The translations under genes were made by a program, and so were the position numbers. Of a stretch of DNA of 47,709 nt, positions 33,812-37,405 are shown one piece after another (the first letter of the stretch is position 1; each line of letters begins with the position of its first letter). Below the pieces are notes generated by a model. That model did not search any database. It saw nothing but the letters and a program-made list of their open reading frames with translations, and was not told where the DNA came from. The DNA comes from a virus, in IMG/VR virus record IMGVR_UViG_3300046002_005270, positions 1 to 47,709 of that record; one strand, 5' to 3'.

Positions 33812-33874
33812 TAATGTTTATATAAATCTGTTTTATTAACTAGGTTATCCTAATTTAACTTAAATAAAAATATT

Positions 33875-34117
33875 ATGGCATTTAAAGACATTTTTAAAAA
33901 ATCAAGTGATTATAATGAAAAAACTATAATAGGTTTTCTTTCATTCACAGTTATGGTAGGAGCAATTGTAGTAGACTTGGTAACAGGTTACTTAGGGAGA
34001 GCATTAGAATTAAATGAATATATATTTGATGCTTTTATGTACATTACATTAGGGTCATTTCTTCCTGATGTAATTGAAAAATTTGCTGGTTTTAGAGGAA
34101 ATAAAAAATCTGAATAA
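33875..34117 (+). CDS. Small two-helix membrane protein (holin-like candidate)
   Basis: An 80-residue protein with membrane segments at about 18-38 (IIGFLSFTVMVGAIVVDLVTG) and 50-66 (IFDAFMYITLGSFLPDV) and charged ends. It begins a run of small membrane genes leading to the endolysin, which is the main reason to consider a holin or antiholin role. Confidence 0.55.
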   Translation: MAFKDIFKKSSDYNEKTIIGFLSFTVMVGAIVVDLVTGYLGRALELNEYIFDAFMYITLGSFLPDVIEKFAGFRGNKKSE

Positions 34118-34128
34118 AACCAAAAATC

Positions 34129-34524
34129 TTGAAAAACTTAAATGAATTTATACCTGCATTTTTAAATGGAGGGTGGGTAGTATTACTAATAGGTGCAGCA
34201 GGAATGATTGCCCGATTAGTGACTTCTTCGTCCCCTGAAGAAACTAGCGCTAATAATATTGTTAAAAATATCATAGCTGCTATGATTACCTCTCTATTAG
34301 CTTGGTTTATCCTAGAACAATTTGAAATAGGTTCCTTATATAAGGCTTTAATCTATGGTTTAGGCGGGTTAAATTCACCAGAAATCTTAAGTGGAATTTT
34401 AAAAATATCCACATCATTCTCAAATAATCCTGGTGAGTTCCTTTCAAACATAAAATCAGGTAAAGTACAAACACCTTCTAAAAGGAATACGAAAGTTACA
34501 AAAAGACCAGTTAAAAGAAAATAA
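34129..34524 (+). CDS. LydA-like holin candidate
   Basis: A 131-residue membrane protein with a TTG start; the nearby ATG at 34142 is out of frame. The pattern NGGWVVLLIGAAGMIARLV, then IIAAMITSLLAWFIL and ALIYGLGGLNSPEIL resembles LydA-type phage holins: two to three helices and a Gly-rich third segment. It ends in a strongly basic tail (PSKRNTKVTKRPVKRK). Likely forms membrane lesions that release or activate the endolysin at 35704. Confidence 0.6.
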   Translation: MKNLNEFIPAFLNGGWVVLLIGAAGMIARLVTSSSPEETSANNIVKNIIAAMITSLLAWFILEQFEIGSLYKALIYGLGGLNSPEILSGILKISTSFSNNPGEFLSNIKSGKVQTPSKRNTKVTKRPVKRK

Positions 34525-34528
34525 TCAT

Positions 34529-35230
34529 ATGAACAATCAAAAAACATTTATGTTAGTTCTAACCTCAATCGTTTTACTTATTGCAGGTTATGGAATTTAT
34601 GTAGAGAAGAATATTAAAGCTTCTGCTACAACAATCTTAGAGGATAGGCTAAAACCTGTACCTCTTATCTCTCACAGATTTGATTACTACGGAACTACTA
34701 TCCAGGATAACTTTTCAAGTAATGTAGTTAACTATGAACAATTACTAGCCAATAGAGGGGAAATGGAAAGAGTAAAGAGAGAAACAGAAGAAGGTTGGAA
34801 TGCTTACAAAGAAACTTACTTAACTCCTGAAGAAGCAAAATTAGTAGAACGTGCTCAAAAAGGAATGGATGAGGCTGATGCTTTGGTTAGTTTATTATTA
34901 GAAAAAGCAGTTACTGATAGAAAAGCAGTAGATAGTATTCTAAAAACTGGAATATTAAATGAAAAAATTACTCCTGTACTTGACGATACCAATGCTTTAA
35001 TGGATTTACAAACTGAGGTTGGTAAACAAGAAACTATCAAAATGATTGAATTACTTAAAAACTTTTCAAATTTTATGATGGGTGCCTTAGCTTTAGCAAT
35101 TGTATTGTTAGGTTCTATAGTATACCCAATGATAAAGAAGCCAAAAGAACAACCTAAAACAAGAAGAAAAGCTCCTGTTAAAAAACCAGCGGCTAGAAAA
35201 ACAACACCTAGAAAAACTGTTAAAAAATAA
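34529..35230 (+). CDS. Membrane protein with four-helix-bundle chemoreceptor-like sensor domain
   Basis: A 233-residue protein. Membrane segment 1 is at about 7-24 (MLVLTSIVLLIAGYGIYV). Helices of an outside domain follow (about 40-180) with the features of 4HB_MCP ligand-binding domains: VPLISHRFDYYG, NRGEMERVKRETEEGWNAYKETYLTPEE and ERAQKGMDEADALVSLL. Membrane segment 2 is at about 182-200. Instead of HAMP and signalling domains it ends in a 33-residue Lys/Pro/Ala-rich tail (KKPAARKTTPRKTVKK). It overlaps the next gene by one base. In the lysis module, a sensor of external or periplasmic signals that tunes lysis timing is possible (inference). Confidence 0.65.
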   Translation: MNNQKTFMLVLTSIVLLIAGYGIYVEKNIKASATTILEDRLKPVPLISHRFDYYGTTIQDNFSSNVVNYEQLLANRGEMERVKRETEEGWNAYKETYLTPEEAKLVERAQKGMDEADALVSLLLEKAVTDRKAVDSILKTGILNEKITPVLDDTNALMDLQTEVGKQETIKMIELLKNFSNFMMGALALAIVLLGSIVYPMIKKPKEQPKTRRKAPVKKPAARKTTPRKTVKK

Positions 35231-35670
35231 TGAAAAAACTTTTTATCTTTTTTATATTTTTAATATCTTTTATGAGCTATTCTCAAGCTAAATATTATGT
35301 ATGTTTTGCTCCAAATATAGCTTTTAATTCAACCACCCAAGATCCTAAAAACTTATTAGGATGTAACATAGAAATAGGTAAGTATGTAGGAAATACCTCT
35401 ATAGGAATTACAACAGGCCTATTTTCCATAGAAAGCAAATCACTATATTCAGAATTAATTGTCACTGTACCTATAAGTAAAGAATATCCAATTTCAATGT
35501 CAGCAGGAGTAGGATGGTTTTATTTCCAAAAAGATATTACAATGGAATATGATATTAACTATACCTTTAGTATCAAAGATGATCTATCACTTATAATAAC
35601 ATTAAATAATCAAAGTGCCTTTGGTACTACTTCACAAGCTTTTTGCATAGGATTAAATAAGGATTTTTAA
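35230..35670 (+). CDS. Secreted, beta-barrel-like outer membrane protein
   Basis: A 146-residue protein with a clear signal peptide (KKLFIFFIFLISFMSYSQA, cleavage probably after SQA). Alternating beta strands follow (IEIGKYVGNTSIGITTGLF, MSAGVGWFYF, FSIKDDLSLIITLNN), and it ends in aromatic Phe (LNKDF), as many outer-membrane barrels do. The start codon overlaps the sensor-like gene (TAATG). It may alter the host surface during infection or help lysis; neither is proven by the sequence. Confidence 0.6.
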   Translation: MKKLFIFFIFLISFMSYSQAKYYVCFAPNIAFNSTTQDPKNLLGCNIEIGKYVGNTSIGITTGLFSIESKSLYSELIVTVPISKEYPISMSAGVGWFYFQKDITMEYDINYTFSIKDDLSLIITLNNQSAFGTTSQAFCIGLNKDF

Positions 35671-35673
35671 TTG

Positions 35674-35688
35674 AATATTTATTACAAA
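35674..35688 (+). promoter_or_regulatory. Candidate late promoter motif
   Basis: AATATTTATTACAAA, 15 nt before the endolysin ATG. Confidence 0.55.
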
Positions 35689-35703
35689 TAAAAACCATAT
35701 AGT

Positions 35704-36315
35704 ATGAGTTTAACATCATTACAGACTAAAATTGGAGTAACAGCTGATGGAGCTTTTGGTCCAGGTACAATGAAAAAAGCAATGGAGTTTTACAAATTAA
35801 CTCCAATAAGAGCAGCACATTTCTTTGCACAAACCTCTCACGAAACAGGAGGTTTTAAAGCATTTTCAGAAAATTTAAATTACTCAGCACAAGGTCTTCA
35901 AGGGATATTTGGAAAATACTTCCCAGGCAATTTAGAAGAATCTTACGCTAGAAATCCTGAGAAAATTGCTAATAGAGTTTATGCTTCAAGAATGGGTAAC
36001 GGTGATGAAAAATCAGGAGATGGTTGGAAATTTAGAGGAAGAGGTGCTCTTCAGTTAACTGGAAAAGATAACTATAAGGCATTTTCAGACTACTTAAAGA
36101 AACCTGAAATCATGACTAACCCTGACCTAGTGGCTACAACTTATTCATTTGAATCAGCAATGTTCTTCTTTGATAAAAACAAATTGTGGTCAATCTGTGA
36201 TCAAGGAATCAATGATGCAGCTATATTAGCTCTTACAAAAAGAATTAACGGTGGTACTCACGGGTTAGAAGATAGAAATCAAAAAACTAAAAAGTATTAC
36301 GAATTTGTAAAGTAG
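35704..36315 (+). CDS. Endolysin, GH19 chitinase-like lysozyme
   Basis: A 203-residue muralytic enzyme. A short N-terminal peptidoglycan-binding-like segment (LQTKIGVTADGAFGPGTM) leads into a GH19-type fold: FFAQTSHETGGFKAFSENL with H46 and the catalytic-type E47, GWKFRGRGALQLTGKDNY, and TKRINGG. It has no signal peptide, so it should need a holin. It has its own late motif and is followed by a holin-like gene and spanin-like genes. Confidence 0.88.
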   Translation: MSLTSLQTKIGVTADGAFGPGTMKKAMEFYKLTPIRAAHFFAQTSHETGGFKAFSENLNYSAQGLQGIFGKYFPGNLEESYARNPEKIANRVYASRMGNGDEKSGDGWKFRGRGALQLTGKDNYKAFSDYLKKPEIMTNPDLVATTYSFESAMFFFDKNKLWSICDQGINDAAILALTKRINGGTHGLEDRNQKTKKYYEFVK

Positions 36316-36326
36316 TTGTATATAGC

Positions 36327-36752
36327 ATGAAAACATCACTTATAATCATATTAACATTGACAACAGCTTGCGCATTTATAGGTTCCTACTTTATGGAACT
36401 TACAGCAGATAACATCGAACAGTACCTTTCAGTAGCATTTGTAGTATTTGCTGATGGTTTTTTTGGTGTATGGGCAGGCACAAAGGCAAAGGGTTTCCAA
36501 ACTTGTAAAGCATTAAAAGTACTAAGAACCTTTGGATTCTGGGTGGTAATGCTATCTGCTATATTAACTATAGAGAAAGGATTTACTGGAACATCATGGT
36601 TAAGTGAAACTATTATGGCTCCATTTTTAGTATTCCAATTAATTTCTATTTTCAAAAATGCTTCAATGGTAGGTATAGTAAAAAATGAGTTACTTATACA
36701 AATTTTAGACAAACTAGACAAACATAAAGGTGAAAGAGATAACAGCAATTAA
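36327..36752 (+). CDS. Phage holin candidate (phi29-type holin family)
   Basis: A 141-residue membrane protein with three to four hydrophobic segments (3-21, 33-52, 66-84, 94-110). FADGFFGVWAGTKAKG, then a basic turn and VLRTFGFWVVMLSAIL, recalls the DxxTG-type phage holin family. The C-terminus is a charged amphipathic helix. It lies just after the endolysin and overlaps the next gene by 23 nt. Confidence 0.65.
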   Translation: MKTSLIIILTLTTACAFIGSYFMELTADNIEQYLSVAFVVFADGFFGVWAGTKAKGFQTCKALKVLRTFGFWVVMLSAILTIEKGFTGTSWLSETIMAPFLVFQLISIFKNASMVGIVKNELLIQILDKLDKHKGERDNSN

Positions 36753-37095
36753 CAAGCAAAATATAGTGTTAGCTATAGTGGCAGGACTATTAATATGGAA
36801 CCTTATCAATACTAGAGGAATTTCTACAGATGTTAAACAATACAAAAAGCAGATAGAGCTAATAGAAACAAAAGTAGACTCTGCAAAAACTATAGACAAA
36901 ACTATAACAGTAAAGATAGACTCAGTCCAACAAAGAGTGTTTGGAATTTCAAAAGAAATTCACTATATTGATAAGAATATAAACATAATAAAAAAACAAA
37001 CAGATGAAAAAGTTAGTAGTTCTAATAGGTTTTCTAATGCTGAGCTTGAGCAGTTTTTCTCAAACAGATACAACCAAAGTAGTAATTCCAACTAA
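36730..37095 (+). CDS. Spanin-like protein: N-terminal anchor and coiled coil
   Basis: A 121-residue protein with a GTG start inside the holin gene. One N-terminal membrane helix (about 11-27, NIVLAIVAGLLIWNLI) precedes a long periplasmic-type coiled coil (YKKQIELIETKVDSAKTI, VQQRVFGISKEIHYIDKN) and a Ser/Asn-rich tail. This is the architecture of an inner-membrane spanin. Its 3' end overlaps the next gene by 92 nt, similar to nested Rz/Rz1 pairs. Confidence 0.55.
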   Translation: MKEITAINKQNIVLAIVAGLLIWNLINTRGISTDVKQYKKQIELIETKVDSAKTIDKTITVKIDSVQQRVFGISKEIHYIDKNINIIKKQTDEKVSSSNRFSNAELEQFFSNRYNQSSNSN

Positions 37096-37405
37096 GACTG
37101 CTAGACTTATAGTAGCAGATCTTATCAGATATGATGGATGTAAATTTGAATTGGAACTTACTAAAGAGAAGATAACAAAACTTCAAGAAAGAGAGGCACA
37201 GAAAGATACCATCATAAAATTATTAAATGATAAGGATGAGAATAATAAATTCATCATTCGTCAACAAGAATTACAAATAGGTCAATATGAACATCTAACA
37301 GATGATCTTCACAAAGAATTAAAATCAGCTAAACGCTCTAGTTTTTTCTGGAAAGCAGGAACAATGTTAGGAATATTCACCTCAGTAGTACTTTTAATAA
37401 AATAA
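37004..37405 (+). CDS. Secreted coiled-coil protein with C-terminal membrane segment (spanin partner candidate)
   Basis: A 133-residue protein: signal peptide MKKLVVLIGFLMLSLSSFSQ, then TKTARLIVADLIRYDGCKFE, a long coiled coil, and a C-terminal hydrophobic helix (WKAGTMLGIFTSVVLLI). It has no lipobox, so it is not a classic outer-membrane o-spanin. Proteins with this TARLI...DL..YD start occur next to lysis genes in other Bacteroidota phages. The overlap with the preceding gene supports a paired function. Confidence 0.55.
   Translation: MKKLVVLIGFLMLSLSSFSQTDTTKVVIPTKTARLIVADLIRYDGCKFELELTKEKITKLQEREAQKDTIIKLLNDKDENNKFIIRQQELQIGQYEHLTDDLHKELKSAKRSSFFWKAGTMLGIFTSVVLLIK

Follow-up and report, generated by a model that had tools for sequence, protein, structure and literature searches.

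Why would a phage keep what looks like the front half of a chemoreceptor among its lysis genes? The question is raised by a 47.7-kb IMG/VR virus record (the window, meaning the whole stretch of 47,709 nucleotides that was analysed), which codes for a T4-type major capsid protein and a contractile sheath. Judged by the capsid protein, the cultured phages closest to it belong to the immuto group of Flavobacterium phages (58% amino-acid identity), and its lysis genes lie at 33.9-37.4 kb (Table 1). Here we describe a membrane protein from this region, the 4HB protein, that accompanies a LydA-like holin throughout a group of uncultivated Bacteroidetes-type phages, and we infer that it probably controls the timing of host burst.

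Table 1. Lysis-region features of the window and predicted parts of the 4HB protein.
Feature	Position	Strand	Remarks
g80, 80-aa two-helix membrane protein, weak holin/TssN-like	33875..34117	+	left flank of the cassette
Cassette: holin, 4HB protein and barrel	34109..35686	+	absent from the closest cultured phage, immuto
LydA-like superfamily III holin	34129..34524	+	TTG start; Lys/Arg/Pro C-tail; constant upstream partner
4HB_MCP_1 membrane protein, antiholin-type sensor candidate	34529..35230	+	233 aa; ATG
TM1, ~residues 7-25, predicted N-in	34547..34603	+	hydropathy; model helix 3-41
Predicted periplasmic four-helix bundle, ~residues 26-178	34604..35062	+	
TM2, ~residues 179-203	35063..35137	+	hydropathy; conserved FxNFMxGxLAL...GSxxY
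Predicted cytoplasmic Lys/Arg/Pro/Thr tail, in the place of HAMP	35138..35227	+	
Signal peptide and predicted 8-stranded outer-membrane beta-barrel	35230..35670	+	cassette gene 3
GH19 endolysin	35704..36315	+	Pfam 1e-8; phrog_181 4.8e-62; right flank of the cassette
Phage_holin_4_1, second holin	36327..36752	+	26.4 bits vs cut-off 22.2 (Pfam)

Judged from sequence and model, the protein is of the two-TM 4HB_MCP_1 sensory-module type. 4HB_MCP_1 is its single significant Pfam family (E=1e-7, 32.1 bits against a cut-off of 27, residues 9-169), and all 26 aligned close relatives match the same family (E<=0.01), 9 of them matching TarH as well. Among diverged relatives, L053 and L048 score 44.7 and 38.8 bits, L064 and L099 fall under the cut-off, and L047 and L068 give no Pfam hit. 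Hydropathy finds two membrane segments (19-residue windows starting near residues 5-9 and 179-186). The AlphaFold model, of moderate confidence (pLDDT 69, pTM 0.50) and low confidence in the tail, has helices at residues 3-41, 45-63, 76-94, 100-129 and 142-202. Its best solved-structure match is the ligand-binding domain of MCP2201 (Z 13.4, rmsd 2.5, 128 residues); the corresponding domain of Vc1313 (Z 12.4, rmsd 2.8, 155 residues), YvaQ-McpB (McpB Z 12.2) and NarQ also rank high, and the top five matches are all chemoreceptor ligand-binding domains. A first-pass annotation had read the protein as two membrane helices around an MCP-type four-helix bundle and had proposed a model as a check on the fold; the Pfam score above cut-off, the hydropathy and the model all bear this out. 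The fold by itself is weak evidence, because unrelated bundles (de novo designs, apolipoprotein E) reach Z 10-12, and the argument is carried by the sequence matches. A profile-sequence search of solved structures with the protein returned no chemoreceptor and no relevant match. The stretch SATTILEDRLKPxPLxSHRFDYYGT, at residues 32-56, is near-invariant among close relatives.

Downstream of TM2, Pfam reports no HAMP, MCPsignal or kinase domain; a tail of ~30 K/R/P/T residues is found there, in agreement with the earlier description of a short basic tail replacing the HAMP and signalling parts. The final 25 residues hold 12 K/R and 0 D/E, and the only near equal within the window is the adjacent holin (10 K/R, 0 D/E). 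Tails of 62 homologues span 23-57 residues with a mean of 15 K/R and 1.4 D/E, so that a Lys/Pro-rich composition is conserved, and it is common to the holin tail. The tail may bind nucleic acid, as had been suggested; membrane-surface or charge effects account for it equally well.

What is new here, at the level of sequence, is the constancy of the pairing with the LydA-like holin. Loci were gathered from both ends, from the 4HB protein and from the holin alone, and their ORFs were scored with profiles. Directly upstream of the 4HB protein, a LydA-like holin is present in 74/74 distinct homologues, and no homologue among the 74 examined lies away from one. Seen from the other end, the 4HB protein comes next in 72 of the 83 complete distinct holins. 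The overlap between the 4HB start and the holin stop is 4 bases in 32/74 and 1 base in 14/74, and in another 26/74 the start comes within 5 bases after the stop; the last two spacings belong to 4HB ORFs called with an earlier in-frame start. With starts that overlap or lie so close, the two genes are probably translationally coupled. L001 and L025 were considered as holin-less loci and rejected, their appearance being an artefact of an earlier in-frame choice of 4HB start.

The gene pair is kept among homologues down to ~40% identity, far beyond chance, and in the distant lineage L099-L101 an un-iterated profile detects a 4HB homologue at the same position in L099 (E=2.9e-8). The 11 of 83 holins that have no 4HB partner occur in marine T4-like phages and in a small number of other contig groups, and they are also without the long Lys/Arg/Pro tail typical of paired holins; the holin of L099, paired and short-tailed, is an exception. 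Over 29 loci, pairwise divergence of the holin and the 4HB protein is correlated at r=0.91, against 0.61-0.74 for either of them with the endolysin. The remaining values (4HB/barrel 0.85, 4HB/endolysin 0.74, 4HB/g80 0.67, g80/endolysin 0.71) agree with two units, and the correlations partly reflect the shared descent of neighbouring genes. The pair also persists beside three unrelated endolysin types (GH19, Amidase_2 and Peptidase_M15_3), which indicates that it goes with the holin and not with the enzyme.

Of the two holin candidates named in the first annotation, the one at 34129 is the LydA-like protein and the one at 36327 is a Phage_holin_4_1 above cut-off that adjoins the endolysin in immuto too. 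The LydA-like holin of the window scores 19.2 bits against Pfam Phage_holin_3_3, under the cut-off of 28.4; this model matches 9/21 members of the holin family at E<=0.01, and phrog_6384 'holin' matches 19/21 (best 3.6e-9). By sequence reading the protein has approximately three TMs and lacks a sizeable periplasmic domain. TTG is the apparent start in ~34 of 83 distinct holins, that of the window included, and may limit holin synthesis. Further downstream, two overlapping genes (36730-37095 and 37004-37405), both conserved in immuto, are possibly a spanin-like pair: one product combines an N-terminal TM with a coiled coil, and the other has a signal peptide and is hydrophobic at its C-terminus.

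A location between holin-like and endolysin genes had been described for the 4HB gene. The setting is correct, but the gene does not directly adjoin the endolysin, since 35230-35670 intervenes. Comparison with immuto gives this intervening gene a context. Window positions 33855-34108 are 82% identical to immuto at the nucleotide level and positions 35687-36738 are 79% identical, and in immuto both flanks are contiguous except for 13 nt where the window has the cassette. There, the counterparts of g80 (gp192), the endolysin (81% amino-acid identity) and Phage_holin_4_1 follow one another. The joined flanks argue that the three genes for holin, 4HB protein and 35230-35670 product are present or absent together, as one unit of ~1.58 kb. 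The product of 35230-35670 is predicted with good confidence (pLDDT 86, pTM 0.75) to be a signal peptide followed by an 8-stranded outer-membrane barrel, and its model matches the OprF N-domain (Z 16.9), NspA (15.9), OmpA and OmpW (~15). The cassette unit and the membership of the barrel are, like the fold, the topology and the pairing, deduced from sequence or models. A barrel gene comes next in 44/59 homologues of the 4HB protein and a g80-like gene in 8/59, which points to the holin/4HB pair as the core; in L099 the next gene is not a barrel. A phage-encoded barrel of this predicted kind is a candidate for superinfection exclusion or outer-membrane disruption.

Searches outside these loci returned little. 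With four 4HB proteins and two holins as queries, tblastn found no homologue in 50,697 phage records, and the A2 profile, in a search without a positive control, matched nothing in immuto, Microcystis phage Mel-JY01, RM378 or HTVC008M. Bacterial genomes scanned with the 4HB alignment gave no match by short exact patterns, which diverged copies may escape; the same kind of scan with the holin alignment gave one Flavobacteriaceae MAG contig, where the holin has no 4HB neighbour. Antiholin and lysis-inhibition families in Pfam, PHROGs and NCBIfam do not match the 4HB protein or its homologues, and a weak spanin match (0.0041) occurs in 1 of 23 homologues. In the open-access literature we found no description of a 4HB or chemoreceptor protein as an antiholin. 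The best viral structural match (BFVD) is A0A8S5L4P1 (E 4.8e-3, probability 1.00, TM 0.62), a fragment that is named '4HB MCP domain-containing protein' and attributed to an ssRNA phage; it may be another case of a phage using the 4HB domain, or a host sequence that was wrongly attributed. A sensor-like protein also accompanies a lysis gene in Cellulophaga phage phi14:2 (KC821624; L178:2312-2941), where an N-terminal TM, a coiled coil and a PAS-like domain (PAS_4, 22.8 vs 23.1 bits) make up a product whose gene overlaps the start of the GH19 endolysin gene.

What, then, does the 4HB protein do? We consider the chances about even that it is a dedicated antiholin-type partner or regulator of the LydA-like holin upstream. 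This reading is supported by the pairing in every homologue, the tight co-divergence of the two proteins, the conserved position in L099, the missing long tail of unpaired holins, and the precedent of phage P1, in which an antiholin is encoded downstream for the LydA holin (PMC9025707). It is weakened by the absence of the cassette from immuto, the sub-cut-off Pfam score of the holin and the lack of an antiholin family match, as well as by the moderate confidence of a model whose helical bundle resembles many folds and the failure of the profile-sequence search to retrieve a chemoreceptor. Since immuto manages with another holin, the LydA-like protein may itself be an accessory holin or a non-holin.

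In receptors, the 4HB-type domain binds ligands. We infer physical contact with the holin, inhibition of the holin, periplasmic sensing and the nature of the signal, and together these would give the following mechanism. The 4HB protein would be inserted N-in/C-in with its chemoreceptor-type four-helix bundle in the periplasm, and TM1 and TM2, perhaps with both matching basic tails, would make contact with the holin and keep it from triggering lysis. By its sequence the holin appears to end in a basic C-tail and to lack a sizeable periplasmic domain, and contact would thus be made through membrane helices or tails, unlike in RI/T. The bundle could tune this hold according to a periplasmic condition, such as a ligand, envelope stress or superinfection, so that the front half of a receptor would send its signal sideways to the holin and not down through HAMP. 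True signal-gated sensing by the 4HB protein is a tentative part of this scheme. We regard as similarly speculative the idea that a chemoreceptor's input half (4HB and two TMs) was taken up by phages for the direct gating of a holin, producing an environment-responsive lysis switch, possibly together with the phage-encoded outer-membrane barrel.

The main rival is that the 4HB protein senses nothing and is an obligate holin co-factor, a two-TM protein that either forms a structural part of a two-component holin or helps to assemble it, with the bundle as a mere rigid spacer in the periplasm. Constant pairing and coupled spacing would also fit such a subunit, and marine T4-like phages (L074-L092, e.g. 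L083:5310-5525) place behind the same holin family a 71-aa protein built of a TM, a short loop, a TM and a basic end. This protein is alike in topology and has no four-helix bundle, and the two-TM hairpin may therefore be the indispensable element and the bundle an optional addition. However, the 71-aa protein has no family match, which leaves its homology to the 4HB protein putative, and the bundle is preserved down to ~40% identity and includes a near-invariant segment following TM1, which exceeds the needs of a spacer; overall we hold this explanation to be rather unlikely. The chemoreceptor resemblance could also be that of a generic helical bundle with no chemoreceptor ancestry, which is compatible with a role in lysis. 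The modest model, the scores of unrelated bundles, the empty profile-sequence search and the Pfam-negative L047 and L068 lean that way; against them stand independent Pfam matches throughout the close relatives and up to the bit score of L053, structural matches headed by five chemoreceptor domains, and a best viral match named for 4HB MCP, and we consider a merely generic resemblance unlikely.

Two further explanations place the function elsewhere. An outer-membrane barrel makes conceivable a cassette for superinfection exclusion or envelope remodelling, in which incoming phages would be blocked or detected by the barrel together with the 4HB protein, and the LydA-like product would act as a small effector in the membrane and not as a lysis holin. 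The barrel is indeed the usual next gene, and the cassette is separable from core lysis genes that stay together in immuto. This explanation is nonetheless unlikely given that the unit sits among lysis genes in the loci read, that the barrel gives way to a g80-like gene in some homologues and is not the next gene in L099, and that nearly all upstream proteins compared (19/21) match a holin family. Finally, a truncated receptor might act as a decoy in host signalling, one that dampens 4HB receptors or histidine kinases of the infected host by pairing with them. Retention of the receptor front half without an output domain is what such a decoy would look like, but it leaves unexplained the holin directly before every homologue, and we consider it very improbable.

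The lysis-inhibition systems of T4, ICP1 and N4 belong to Escherichia and Vibrio phages, and the cassette belongs to Bacteroidetes-type phages. The cassette is widespread, compact and separable; it offers a type of domain that binds ligands in receptors, a constant holin partner and, in immuto, a relative that has the empty site naturally and whose Flavobacterium host can be cultured. With a single gene pair it becomes possible to test what phages sense ahead of lysis, which would connect the biology of receptors with the timing of lysis.

Several known systems share features with this arrangement. Modules of the 4HB_MCP_1 (PF12729)/TarH type, as in MCP2201 and Vc1313, have the same two TMs around a periplasmic four-helix bundle, but the phage protein has no HAMP, MCPsignal or kinase output, ends in a Lys/Pro tail and is paired with a holin. 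Antiholins are commonly encoded close to their holin (PMC7182436). TeaA/ArrA of the Vibrio phage ICP1 and gp63/gp62 of N4 likewise combine a holin with a membrane antiholin or lysis regulator; neither is described there with a 4HB_MCP domain, and the likeness is one of function (PMC7182436, PMC12642591). In T4, the holin T has a single TM, and its periplasmic domain is bound by RI, a small protein of the periplasm that is made with a cleavable signal peptide (PMC11413866, PMC8385771); RI inhibits this holin through the periplasmic domains of both and is thought to respond to the DNA of superinfecting phage (PMC8385771, PMC11413866). The initial proposal of an RI-like lysis sensor holds for the link to a holin, and its likeness to RI is one of functional analogy, that of a periplasmic domain that would regulate a holin and might sense superinfection; the 4HB protein differs in its predicted second TM and cytoplasmic-type basic tail, and matches no RI family. 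The closest parallel in gene order is P1, where the antiholin LydB shares an operon with LydA, LydB antagonises LydA, and lydB mutants lyse early (PMC9025707). The upstream protein described here resembles Phage_holin_3_3 (LydA) and the candidate antiholin occupies the matching position; LydB, however, is predicted to lack TM domains and has no functionally characterised homologues (PMC9025707), whereas the 4HB protein has two predicted TMs.
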